From assembly GCF_004135625.1 (NCBI RefSeq), contig NZ_SDPV01000001.1, positions 1,238,501 to 1,302,500 on the forward strand: a stretch of DNA of 64,000 bases, read 5' to 3'. This document shows, piece after piece, positions 10,494 through 64,000 of this stretch. The first letter of the stretch is position 1. Each line of letters starts with the position of its first letter. Position numbers and translations under genes: made by a program. Origin of the DNA: Pelagerythrobacter rhizovicinus. GTDB lineage: Bacteria > Pseudomonadota > Alphaproteobacteria > Sphingomonadales > Sphingomonadaceae. Below the pieces are notes generated by a model. That model ran no database searches. It had not been told where the DNA came from and was given only the letters and a program-made list of their open reading frames with translations.

Positions 10494-11677
10494 CAGGCCT
10501 CGAATAGCACTTTTGTGCTCCCCGTCACCATTTCCGCGAGCCGGGCCGCATCCCAGTTGGTCAGCCGCACGCAGCCATGGCTCTGGGTGCGGCCGATCGT
10601 CTGCGGCTCGGGCGTTCCGTGGATGCCATAGTGTTCCTTGGTGAGATCGATCCAGACCACCCCGACAGGGTTGTTGGGCCCCGGCGGGATCTGCTGCTCC
10701 TCCTCGTGGTCGGGCACGTCCCAGAACAGCGAAGGATCGTAGGCGAAGGGCGGGTTGAAGGCGACGCCGTTCACGCCCCACTCGCCAAGCGGCAACGGGT
10801 CGTGCTCCGAGCCCGAGGTGACGGTGAACAGCGCCACGAGGTTGTCCTCGCCATCATAGGCGCGCAGCGTGCCCTTGGACTTGCTGACGACGATCCGCGA
10901 GACCTCGGGCTGCTCACTGCCGACGCCGAGCATCTGCAGCGTGCGCTGCCAGTCCGGATTCTCGATCGCCCCCGGCGCGATCCGGTCCGCGCCGATGTTG
11001 GGAACGCGCACGAGCTGCCCCGCCGTGAACTTCGCCTGCCGTTCGCCCTCGCCGCCGCGGCCCGCTGCGCCCGTGGTCGCAGATTTTTCGGCGGCCCCGG
11101 TCATGCCCGCTGGCTTGCCGCCGGGATTGAGCGTTTCGAGCACCTCGACGGTCGTGTGAAACCGCTCGGCCAGCTTCTCGGCCAGCGTTTCGTAGCCAAG
11201 CCGCTCCATCTCCGCCTGCTCGGCCGGATCGTCGGGAACCGGCGCGAAGGTGAGCTTCCCCCACGCCTCGGGGATGCGGACCACGCGCGTCGCGGCGATG
11301 TTGTCCCATTGCGCGAGAGCCTGGCGCGTCGATTCGTCCAGCTCGCCGGTCGCCTCCAGCTCGTTCGCTTCCTGAAAGCCGCGCAGCGCGTTCTCCGTGC
11401 TCATACCCATGGCGCCGTCGATCACCCCGGGCCCGAAGCCCTGCCGGTCGAGCACCACCTGCACCTGCATCAGAGGGCGCTCCTCGACGTCGGGAATCTC
11501 GGGCACCACGCGCTCTCCCGGCGCGGGATCGCGCGAGGCCATCGAATCGGCGAGGTTGTCGTCCGCCGGCGCGGTGGGAGCCGCGGTCGCTTCGCTGTCG
11601 GCCCCGTCGCCGTCGGTGCCGTTCAACCCGCAGGCGGACAGGACGATCAAGGAAGCGGCGGCAAGTGCAAGGCGCAT
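10493..11677 (-). CDS. L,D-transpeptidase lipoprotein with PG-binding and LysM-like domains
   Basis: This 394-residue envelope enzyme starts at ATG 11677 (site GGGAGAA). A lipobox ends LIVLSAC at residue 16. It is followed by a low-complexity acidic linker, a PG_binding_1 domain (VQVVLDRQGFGPGVIDGAMG), a LysM-like segment (RFHTTVEVLETLNPGG, later FTAGQLVRVPNIG) and a YkuD catalytic domain. The active site is complete: HYGIHGTPEP and RTQSHGCVRLTNWDA with the nucleophilic cysteine. It should form 3-3 cross-links or attach proteins to peptidoglycan. It is coupled to the M23 peptidase downstream. Confidence 0.9.
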   Translation of the reverse strand: MRLALAAASLIVLSACGLNGTDGDGADSEATAAPTAPADDNLADSMASRDPAPGERVVPEIPDVEERPLMQVQVVLDRQGFGPGVIDGAMGMSTENALRGFQEANELEATGELDESTRQALAQWDNIAATRVVRIPEAWGKLTFAPVPDDPAEQAEMERLGYETLAEKLAERFHTTVEVLETLNPGGKPAGMTGAAEKSATTGAAGRGGEGERQAKFTAGQLVRVPNIGADRIAPGAIENPDWQRTLQMLGVGSEQPEVSRIVVSKSKGTLRAYDGEDNLVALFTVTSGSEHDPLPLGEWGVNGVAFNPPFAYDPSLFWDVPDHEEEQQIPPGPNNPVGVVWIDLTKEHYGIHGTPEPQTIGRTQSHGCVRLTNWDAARLAEMVTGSTKVLFEA

Positions 11678-60783: not shown

Positions 60784-61398
60784 CTACGAGGCCGGAGTAT
60801 TCGCCGGCGAGGCTTGCTGCTGAGGCAGCCGCTCTCGTTCGAAGGTGATCGTCTGGATACGGGCATCCAGCCGCCGAACGACATCTGGGGTGAGGTCGTT
60901 GGCGAAGTTCCCTCCAAGCGCTGAGTTCCGATCGAGGATGAGACCGCATCCCTTCTCACCATAGACTTCCGCAATCACGGGCTGGGCCTCGCTCGCAATG
61001 CGCTCCAGCGCCTTGGCGCGGGTCGCCGCGATCTCGCGACTGCTGTGCGCGGCACGTTCCTGAAGTGCCTGCCAGCGCCTGGCGAGTTCCTCGCGGCGCT
61101 GGCGCGTCTCGGCATTGTCTGGTTGTCCTTCCAGTGCGCGTGCCTCGGTCTCGACCTGCGTGCGCTCGGCGTCAATCTCCGCCTGTGCGGTCTGGGCCAG
61201 CTCCTGCAGCCGCGCGGTGGCGGCCTTTCCGACCGCGGCGTTGGCGAACATCGCCTCCCGTGAGAGGAGACATACGCCCGGCACGACCGGGCCGCCAAGC
61301 GGCTGCACCGCCGGCGTGGGTTCATTGACAGTCTGCGCCGGAGCCGCCGTGGCGGCGCCGATCAGGAGAACGAAAGAAGCAACGGAACGGCGGATCAT
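60784..61398 (-). CDS. OmpH/Skp-family periplasmic protein
   Basis: This 204-residue protein starts at ATG 61398, overlapping the sapC stop (ATGA). Residues 1-22 are a signal peptide (FVLLIGAATAAPAQT). The mature part has the Skp/OmpH pattern: VCLLSREAMFANAAVGKAAT, a long charged coiled-coil (RQRREELARRWQALQERA) and a C-terminal EKGCGLILDRNSAL strand. Skp binds unfolded outer-membrane proteins in the periplasm. Being coupled to SapC and next to a large exoprotein, it may serve their export; this is inference. The main cell skp is usually near bamA, which is not here. Confidence 0.85.
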   Translation of the reverse strand: MIRRSVASFVLLIGAATAAPAQTVNEPTPAVQPLGGPVVPGVCLLSREAMFANAAVGKAATARLQELAQTAQAEIDAERTQVETEARALEGQPDNAETRQRREELARRWQALQERAAHSSREIAATRAKALERIASEAQPVIAEVYGEKGCGLILDRNSALGGNFANDLTPDVVRRLDARIQTITFERERLPQQQASPANTPAS

Positions 61399-62204
61399 GC
61401 GGGCACCTTCTTCGGCTTGGGTTCGTGCACGGGCTCCGGCGCGGCTTCGGATGCGTCTGCGCGCGCCTGGCGATCGAGGAGGCTGGAGAAGCGGTCGAGC
61501 GAGGCGAGGTGGAAGTGAACCCAAGCCAGATAGCCGTTCCCGTGCCACTCCTTGACTGCCTCGTCCGGCAGCCTGGCGAACCTCTCGCGGTCGACGATCT
61601 GGAAGCCTTCGAGCCCGAGCTTGCGCCCATCCGGCAGGGTCGCGTCGACACGGCGATCGATGAGCAGGTCCTCGGCCTTCAACGCTTCGGCGAAGGCGCG
61701 CGTCGCCCTGGCGTCGGACTGGAAGGCATCGCAAAAGGCGAGAGCCTGCCGGGTCAGCTCGGCGGGCTTGCCGTCCTCGAACAGCGGCGTGCCTTCACCG
61801 CCCGAACGCTCGATCCGCTCCGACGCGGCATCGACCGCCAGCACGAACTCGTCGGGTTTGCCGGTGGCGATGAAGCCGAAAGGATAGCGGCGCACATAAG
61901 CCGGAACGTAGCAGTCCAGGCTCCATTGACCGTCCTTTACGAACAGGTTCCGGCGCTGCAGTCCGAGCACCGCGACCAGCTGCGCGTCACCGGCGGCGAA
62001 CACGACCGGGTAGCAGCGTGCGGCGGCGGTCAGTTCCGCAGCCACAATGGGGACATAGGCCGCCTCTGCGGCGAAGGAGGCATCACCGCTCTTGAGCCGC
62101 CAATCGGCGTGGGCCGACGACGAAAGCGGCTGCGGATCGCGGTAGAACAGCGGAAGGCCGGCCTTGCCGGTGCCGCCCGCTTCGGGTGCAGGTTGAGTTG
62201 CCAT
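61395..62204 (-). CDS. SapC family protein
   Basis: This 269-residue protein matches the SapC family: PLSSSAHADWRLKSGDASFA, YVPIVAAELTAAARCYPVVF, YVRRYPFGFIATG, and FQIVDRERFARLPDEAVKEW. SapC proteins are encoded with S-layer or other surface proteins (first in Campylobacter), but their biochemical role is not clear. There is no signal peptide. The C-terminal tail is proline- and lysine-rich. It lies between the giant exoprotein gene (67 nt) and the OmpH gene (ATGA overlap). Confidence 0.9.
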   Translation of the reverse strand: MATQPAPEAGGTGKAGLPLFYRDPQPLSSSAHADWRLKSGDASFAAEAAYVPIVAAELTAAARCYPVVFAAGDAQLVAVLGLQRRNLFVKDGQWSLDCYVPAYVRRYPFGFIATGKPDEFVLAVDAASERIERSGGEGTPLFEDGKPAELTRQALAFCDAFQSDARATRAFAEALKAEDLLIDRRVDATLPDGRKLGLEGFQIVDRERFARLPDEAVKEWHGNGYLAWVHFHLASLDRFSSLLDRQARADASEAAPEPVHEPKPKKVPA

Positions 62205-62271
62205 GAACGTGCTCCTGGATGGGATAACCGAAGCCGCACTGACGGCTGCGGGGTGGATGCTCGCCTACGCC

Positions 62272-64000
62272 TCAGTTGTGAGCGTAGCGGCTGGGTTCGA
62301 TCATGATCGTGCGGTCGTCGATCAGCACCGCCCGCAAGCGATTGCGAAGAAGCCGTGAGATCGCCTGCTTGAGGGTCATCGACCCACGAAGGGGAGCGGT
62401 CCTGAAGTTGGCTGCGACATCGGTGCTGTAGAGGATGTTGTATCCAGACAGCCCGCCTATCTGCTGCATCGCCTCGTCAAGGTTCGTCGCCGCAATCTCG
62501 ACGTGCATTTTGCGTTCGGGCCAGGTCGGCTGCTGCCGGTCCGCTTCGGCCCGCTCTGCCCGCGAAGGCGTCGCATTCGAGGATTGTGAGGCACCCGGCG
62601 CGCACGCCTCGCGTCGGTCCCCCTCGCCGCAATCGCCATATCCGGTGACGCGAACCTCGATGATCGAGGGCGTGGTCGCGGCCGCGTTCTGGCGAACGGT
62701 TTCGGTGAGGCTTTCGAGAAGGTTGCTGCCAAGCAGCGACTTGCTGCCGAGGTCGCCCACGTCCAGCGACGTGGGCGGTGCGGCCGGCGCCTCGGGCAGA
62801 CCGGTCGTGCGGCCGGCCACGTCGATGTTGTCCGCCCCGAGGATTTCGATGGCGAAGACGTTGAGGTTGCCCGAGACGCGGATGCCCGCATCCCCCGCAT
62901 CGACGACGCCATAGTTCGCGACCAGATCGACGTCGGCGGGCGGCACGCCCGGGGTGGACGCCAGCGTGCCGATGCCGGCACCGGTCGGCAGACCGGCGGG
63001 CGAGCGGGTGAAGTTGGCGAGTTCGTCGATATGCCGTTCGAAGTAGGGCGGCGTCATCGAGGTTTTGGCGCCGTTGCCCGCGGCAATGCTGCCGAACGAC
63101 GACCACATCATGATATTGCCGCCCTGGGTGGTGAGCACGCGGGACTGGTTCACATCCTGGTCCCCATGGGTGAGGACGTTCACCTCGCCGCCGCCCTGCG
63201 TGACGATACCGGCGCGCAAGGCATCGCCCTGTGGGTTGGTCTCCGACGGCTGGCCGGTCTGATCGGCATTGGCCGCCGCGCTGGCGAGGCGGAAGAAGCC
63301 CCCCGGCGCAACCACCGAGACATCGCCGCCGGCGTTGGAGAGGATCCGGCTGGCGAAGGTCTCGAAGTTGCCCGCCCAGCGGGATTCGCCGTCCGCCAGC
63401 TGCTCGTCGGCGGCCTTCTGCGCGCCCGGGTAAAGCGTACCGATGGCCGTGTAGCCCCGGTTCACCGAACCCTGGCGTTCGTTGTCGGGATCGTTTGCCT
63501 CCCGGCTGGCGGTGCGCAGTTCAAGGAACAGCGCCGAGCGATAGAAGGGCGCCTTGTAGGCATTGTCCAGACCCTCCCAGTACGCCAGCGCCTCATCCAT
63601 GTAGGCGCGCTGCTCCTGCGCGGTCTCCAGCGGCTCCAGCCCCTGCATCTCACGCACGTAGTTGACGAGGCCCTGGCGCCGCTCCGGCAGGAAGAATTCG
63701 CCCCGCAGCCGCTCGGCCTGTGCCTGCTGGGCCGTGTAGCGCGGCACCAGAGTGTCGTAGGGCGTTTCCTGCGAGGCCGGAAGGGCGAGCCAGTACTCCC
63801 AGGCCTGTTCCAGGTAACCGCGCTGGGCCTCCTCCCCGGCCAGCGGCTCGAGCCCCTGAAGCGAGCGGATGTAGTTTACGAAGCCACCGGCCATGTCCTC
63901 GCTCACCAGTTCCACGGTCGCGCCGTTGCCGCGGGCGTAGAAGCGGTCGAACAGGTACATGGGCATTTTCTCGCCGTCGCCCAGTTCACCGAGCAGGTAA
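62272..64000 (-). CDS. C-terminal end of a filamentous-haemagglutinin-like exoprotein (DUF3739) with an STN domain (5' part outside window)
   Basis: About 576 codons are visible and the frame stays open to the right edge. Two copies of a 35-residue module (LVNYVREMQGLEPL type) lie at 63778-63882 and 63565-63669. The middle part has the DUF3739 features of giant secreted haemagglutinin-like proteins: GGDVSVVAPGG, GGGEVNVLTHGDQDVNQSRV, GIGTLASTPGVPPADVDLVA, VDAGDAGIRVSGNLNVFAIE. The last 80 residues form an STN domain (ATNLDEAMQQIGGLSGYNIL, GSMTLKQAISRLLRNRLRAV), usually found in secretins and TonB receptors. It is presumably secreted or surface-bound. SapC and OmpH genes follow. Confidence 0.88.
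   Translation of the reverse strand, partial: YLLGELGDGEKMPMYLFDRFYARGNGATVELVSEDMAGGFVNYIRSLQGLEPLAGEEAQRGYLEQAWEYWLALPASQETPYDTLVPRYTAQQAQAERLRGEFFLPERRQGLVNYVREMQGLEPLETAQEQRAYMDEALAYWEGLDNAYKAPFYRSALFLELRTASREANDPDNERQGSVNRGYTAIGTLYPGAQKAADEQLADGESRWAGNFETFASRILSNAGGDVSVVAPGGFFRLASAAANADQTGQPSETNPQGDALRAGIVTQGGGEVNVLTHGDQDVNQSRVLTTQGGNIMMWSSFGSIAAGNGAKTSMTPPYFERHIDELANFTRSPAGLPTGAGIGTLASTPGVPPADVDLVANYGVVDAGDAGIRVSGNLNVFAIEILGADNIDVAGRTTGLPEAPAAPPTSLDVGDLGSKSLLGSNLLESLTETVRQNAAATTPSIIEVRVTGYGDCGEGDRREACAPGASQSSNATPSRAERAEADRQQPTWPERKMHVEIAATNLDEAMQQIGGLSGYNILYSTDVAANFRTAPLRGSMTLKQAISRLLRNRLRAVLIDDRTIMIEPSRYAHN

Follow-up and report, generated by a model that had tools for sequence, protein, structure and literature searches.

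The window, the whole 64,000-nucleotide stretch that we analysed (G000:C1:1238501-1302500), ends on its right inside an exoprotein gene, with genes for SapC and an OmpH/Skp-type protein following on the minus strand (Table 1). The sequence and its translations bear out the gene order that the earlier note had described: 67 nt separate the exoprotein stop from the SapC ATG, which starts at 62204, and the SapC stop (61395-61397) shares an ATGA with the OmpH ATG (61396-61398), OmpH ending at 60784. Taken with the genes past the exoprotein, the order of transcription is ECF sigma factor, FecR, a gap of roughly 440-570 nt, ExbB (in which a DUF2341-LamG part precedes the membrane domain), ExbD, TonB, TpsB, Porin_5, a coiled-coil protein, the exoprotein, SapC and OmpH. 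The note had mentioned neither the TonB/ExbBD and FecI/FecR genes, which lay beyond its view, nor the STN domain, which falls within the window. From ExbB through OmpH the intergenic gaps are at most about 80 nt, with the start codons as chosen in the analysis, and a single operon is therefore likely; between 60300 and 62500 we found no sigma-70 promoters or terminators. Past the sigma gene (L004:9380-14972) lie a TnsA-like endonuclease gene on the same strand and then, on the opposite strand, a TonB-dependent receptor and a PhoD phosphatase.

Table 1. Features of the exoprotein locus (plain positions are those of the window; L002 and L004 are separately extracted segments).
Feature	Position	Strand	Details
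OmpH/Skp-type protein	60784..61398	-	204 aa; PF03938 E 2e-21; two conserved cysteines
SapC	61395..62204	-	269 aa; Pfam PF07277 E 1.6e-64; no evident signal peptide
Exoprotein (TpsA) gene, 3' part	62272..64000	-	stop 62272-62274
C-terminal STN signalling domain	62293..62532	-	about residues 4268-4347; PF07660 33.7 bits, cut-off 28.4
TonB-box-like strand PSIIEVRVTGYG	62635..62670	-	residues 4222-4233; from the alignment of 101 exoproteins
DUF3739 domain	62794..63123	-	residues 4071-4180; PF12545 E 7.5e-30
Whole exoprotein gene	L002:3273-16334	-	4353 aa; extends ~11.3 kb past the right end of the window
Upstream genes: coiled-coil (150 aa), Porin_5, TpsB, TonB, ExbD, ExbB (DUF2341-LamG), then FecR and ECF sigma	L004:388-9153	-	same direction as the exoprotein

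The exoprotein (4353 residues) has a signal-peptide-like start, a TPS domain near its N-terminus (PF05860, E 4.7e-25 in Pfam), a long middle, DUF3739, a tail strand and finally the STN domain; the Pfam scan found in it no domain of an outer-membrane beta-barrel receptor with plug. Once the full gene was extracted, a TpsB was found upstream, carrying POTRA_2 (PF08479, 2.6e-15) and the ShlB/FhaC barrel (PF03865, 5.6e-23), as the earlier proposal of a secretion system with a TpsB-like transporter had anticipated. These domains mark the locus as a DUF3739-type two-partner (type Vb) secretion system, with secretion by TpsB predicted. The accompanying suggestion of a surface-layer system did not hold up: only the SapC name points there, and the Pfam scan of the locus genes gave no S-layer protein or S-layer secretion gene. 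DUF3739 was found in 12 of 150 genomes sampled from the family, 8 of 387 from the class and 19 of 397 from the phylum; the own genome has one such exoprotein. A different genome (G444) has nine DUF3739 exoprotein places (L029, L035, L037-L043). Loci were annotated with profiles of our own locus, in stitched 40-kb segments around 21 loci, in 80 named loci (one scan) and in upstream stretches for five of the 80. The majority of the named loci were collected by a single scan that started from three STN-fused sequences, with a bias toward their relatives, and many show only 10 kb per side, where missing upstream genes carry no meaning.

STN is the signalling domain used by iron receptors to switch genes on, and its fold is widespread. 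The AlphaFold model of the exoprotein STN (pLDDT about 90) has as its best Foldseek matches the signalling domains of FpvA and PupB, with FecA and PupA also close and a TM of up to 0.85 to the PupB domain of the PupB-PupR complex; its PDB sequence matches are transducers only. It could bind something other than FecR. The fold is that of the transducers that act with FecI-FecR, whereas its place differs, being the C-terminus of a secreted protein here and the N-terminus of a beta-barrel receptor in FecA, FpvA and PupB. A survey of more than 8,000 proteins found STN on the N-terminal side of the other domains in every case but PupR's own C-terminal STN (PMC7186176, 2020). A C-terminal STN on DUF3739 exoproteins looks new, and our literature search found no paper combining an STN domain with a filamentous haemagglutinin and none on DUF3739. 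STN-fused exoproteins comprise this one and nine relatives in Sphingomonadales and Caulobacterales, which form one clade in the DUF3739 tree (support 100/99), most DUF3739 exoproteins being without STN. The STN matches of the own genome are only this exoprotein and two proteins of TonB-dependent-receptor size with FecR adjacent; none is a VreA (STN plus a TonB/TolA C-terminal domain). In a decayed locus of the same genus (G004, L065-L066) only the last 794 exoprotein residues are left, STN included, and TpsB, ExbBD, TonB, SapC and OmpH are missing; that STN was kept despite these losses counts against its being read as part of a signalling receptor.

DUF3739 exoproteins also have in common a TonB-box-like strand in the tail (PSIITVEVLGYG), seen in 101 exoprotein ends from Proteobacteria and Verrucomicrobia. 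Between variable columns its consensus is P-S-[IVL]-I-[TS]-V-[EQ]-V-L-G-[YF]-G, in which V and G are conserved in 97/101 each and the Y/F and G in 93/101 each; a strict regular expression matches 72/101, and most of the others carry the strand with substitutions on inspection. The strand is predicted to be disordered. It resembles TonB boxes, judged by eye only, and binding by TonB is hypothetical. Its conservation on these exoproteins looks new, and among the papers listed by our search none links two-partner secretion with a TonB box in this sense. A dedicated TonB-ExbBD occurs in most DUF3739 loci with full flanks, the TonB match being weak in our own locus (E 0.0033) and clearer in relatives. 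Another way to view the strand and the STN domain is as devices for energised export or retention, in which the pull of TonB-ExbBD on the tail would drive the exoprotein out, hold it or release it, with signalling secondary. The dedicated TonB-ExbBD and the conservation of the strand even in exoproteins that lack STN speak for such a role; we regard it as improbable, however, as it leaves the STN domain with its FecI-FecR, and the partition with VreA described next, unexplained.

An ECF sigma factor and FecR adjoin the exoprotein operon in the own genome. FecI-FecR lies beside the exoprotein in 7/7 intact STN-fused loci examined, from Tsuneonella to Asticcacaulis, with VreA in none, and in the 14 loci with a separate VreA (STN plus a TonB-like domain) the exoprotein has no STN, the partition being counted among loci with sigma factor and FecR in sight. 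A scripted count had given 7 loci with the fusion only, 13 with VreA only, 0 with both and 2 with neither; the Fisher value of 0.0002 belongs to these uncorrected counts and ignores kinship. Three corrections followed: G141 does have a VreA, whose TonB match fell under the script threshold; the Hyphomonadaceae exoprotein on the same contig is STN-fused (L111); and G004 was excluded, its FecI-FecR adjoining a receptor and its exoprotein being a fragment. An ordinary DUF3739 two-partner system, with STN as a periplasmic anchor or stop that holds the exoprotein at the surface and FecI-FecR as an unrelated neighbour, would fit the lack of STN in most DUF3739 exoproteins, and there is a precedent in CdrA, a TpsA with a known periplasmic C-terminal tail (review PMC5422565). 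Against this the FecI-FecR pair recurs at every intact STN-fused locus across that range of genera, the linked FecRs cluster, and fusion and VreA exclude one another, and we consider the anchor unlikely.

The nearest published counterpart is the P. aeruginosa PdtA/PdtB system with PUMA3 (VreA-VreI-VreR) and ExbB2-ExbD2-TonB4, which likewise has a TpsA, TpsB, ExbB, ExbD, TonB homologue, ECF sigma factor and FecR-type anti-sigma factor (PMC2729926, PMC4971064), a likeness that rests on published gene content, not on PdtA sequence. It differs in that no VreA was found here and the STN role appears to have moved onto the exoprotein, and in that a PpiC-type isomerase is listed for P. aeruginosa in place of SapC-OmpH. 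The linked FecR is homologous to PupR over the periplasmic domain (E 2.5e-15). FecRs of STN-fused loci cluster (83/82) and lie outside the VreR clade (100/97), their nearest relative being a receptor-linked FecR of S. gei; these placements suggest that two different signalling modules have been joined to DUF3739 exoproteins. A common origin of the VreA-type and STN-fused FecRs is not favoured, but grouping the two together is not rejected either (AU p 0.08), which permits a single origin. Upstream of the operon in STN-fused loci we found no shared sigma-factor promoter motif clearly above shuffles, and in the own locus no pho box beyond chance. A VreA-type relative (G089, L073-L074 stitched) has a perfect pho-box match, CTGTCATCCCACTGTCAT, at position 11452, between vreA and tpsB and upstream of TpsB.

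Signalling is the reading that we think reasonably probable on the gene and domain content: a DUF3739 two-partner system with its own TonB-ExbB-ExbD, whose exoprotein is also a cell-surface-signalling receptor. The exoprotein would probably inform a gene switch of its own about the state it is in. In this scheme TpsB would export the beta-helical body while the C-terminus, made up of the TonB-box-like strand, linker and STN, would remain in the periplasm; a fully secreted exoprotein would carry its STN outside the cell, and we infer the periplasmic position, for which the tail of CdrA offers a precedent (PMC5422565). There the STN would touch the periplasmic domain of FecR, as PupB does with PupR, and this contact would change with what has happened to the exoprotein (completed secretion, binding of a ligand, or a pull by TonB), releasing the sigma factor to drive this operon. 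The linked OmpH may act as a holdase in the periplasm, for the exoprotein while it is unfolded or for its transporter, and SapC as a cytosolic accessory factor. Because the signalling domain of a transducer can shield the anti-sigma factor until the signal comes (PMC11637429), we assign no sign to the effect of STN. A more specific version, which we put forward tentatively and hold somewhat less likely true than not, makes the exoprotein a TonB-coupled transducer: the dedicated TonB would pull the periplasmic tail strand, STN would control FecR and the ECF sigma factor, and the cell would sense the state or ligand of its own fibre, while VreA, in the systems that have it, may use its TonB-like domain to bind that strand.

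If true, the signalling reading would add another type of receptor to cell-surface signalling. It would also suggest that the proton-motive force may be linked to two-partner secretion, a process considered to work without a classical energy source (PMC5422565). In P. aeruginosa PUMA3 the inducing signal and the partner of the unusual receptor VreA are both unknown (PMC4971064, PMC2729926). A sister system with STN fused to its exoprotein puts the exoprotein forward as a candidate, and the conserved strand in the tail as a candidate contact site.

The gene order exoprotein-SapC-OmpH recurs at 11 loci, spread over 10 genomes from two orders (the own genome, G099, G008, G089, G140, Tsuneonella flava, a Sphingomonas MAG, S. 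gei, Asticcacaulis endophyticus and, with two loci, Sphingomonas sp. ERG5), and the association is thus above chance. Elsewhere, OmpH alone stands behind the exoprotein of G080a, UBA2476 has SapC in two pieces and then the contig end, and the remaining loci with the flank in view, including several in the same family, have neither gene. The earlier expectation that the three genes stay together in relatives is thus borne out in these 11 loci and fails in most DUF3739 loci, which makes SapC-OmpH an accessory of part of the family. On the DUF3739 tree the SapC label takes five changes, four of them forced by well-supported branches, a count inflated by the decayed G004 and by L111, whose contig stops at the exoprotein. 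Taken further, the note's idea of one system would make SapC and OmpH indispensable components of a single secretion or surface-layer machine that includes the exoprotein. The recurring trio, the grouping of the linked SapCs and OmpHs away from most of their other copies and the loss of both genes from the decayed locus would suit it; we nonetheless hold it very improbable, given the DUF3739 loci without them, several in the same family, and a scan of the locus genes that yielded no S-layer evidence. No alternative chaperone gene recurs at the operon end of the other loci among the ORFs listed.

The exoprotein-linked OmpH is not the only skp copy: there is a separate bamA-linked OmpH, and a third copy, with the same two cysteines, lies behind a YadA-type trimeric autotransporter (L013:3-5370, about 352.5-357.9 kb on C1). 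A bamA-ompH-fabZ copy is likewise present in every trio genome searched for OmpH (G140 was outside that search). The linked OmpH shares its Pfam family with bamA-linked Skp/OmpH and, judged by eye from the sequence, a signal-peptide-like start; it differs in following sapC, in its two cysteines and in forming a separate group in the sampled genomes, with one Caulobacterales bamA-linked copy excepted. This two-cysteine group, of exoprotein-linked copies, the own autotransporter-linked copy and the Asticcacaulis bamA-linked one, is split (99/100) from the other ten bamA-linked OmpHs, nine of which have no cysteine and one (L209) two elsewhere in the sequence. Since the two-cysteine paralogue differs from the bamA-linked Skp, which is present separately, a chaperone dedicated to the exoprotein, as the earlier note had suggested, is plausible. 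For SapC the AlphaFold model is poor (mean pLDDT 57, six sequences), with no Foldseek match under E 0.001 and no PDB sequence match. The trio-linked SapCs group with one from a Hyphomonadaceae MAG (91/74), apart from halogenase/receptor-linked and stand-alone SapCs. A second SapC of the own genome (L015:4949-12838, C1) sits in a cluster with two tryptophan-halogenase-like genes, a Cupin_8 gene and a TonB-dependent receptor.
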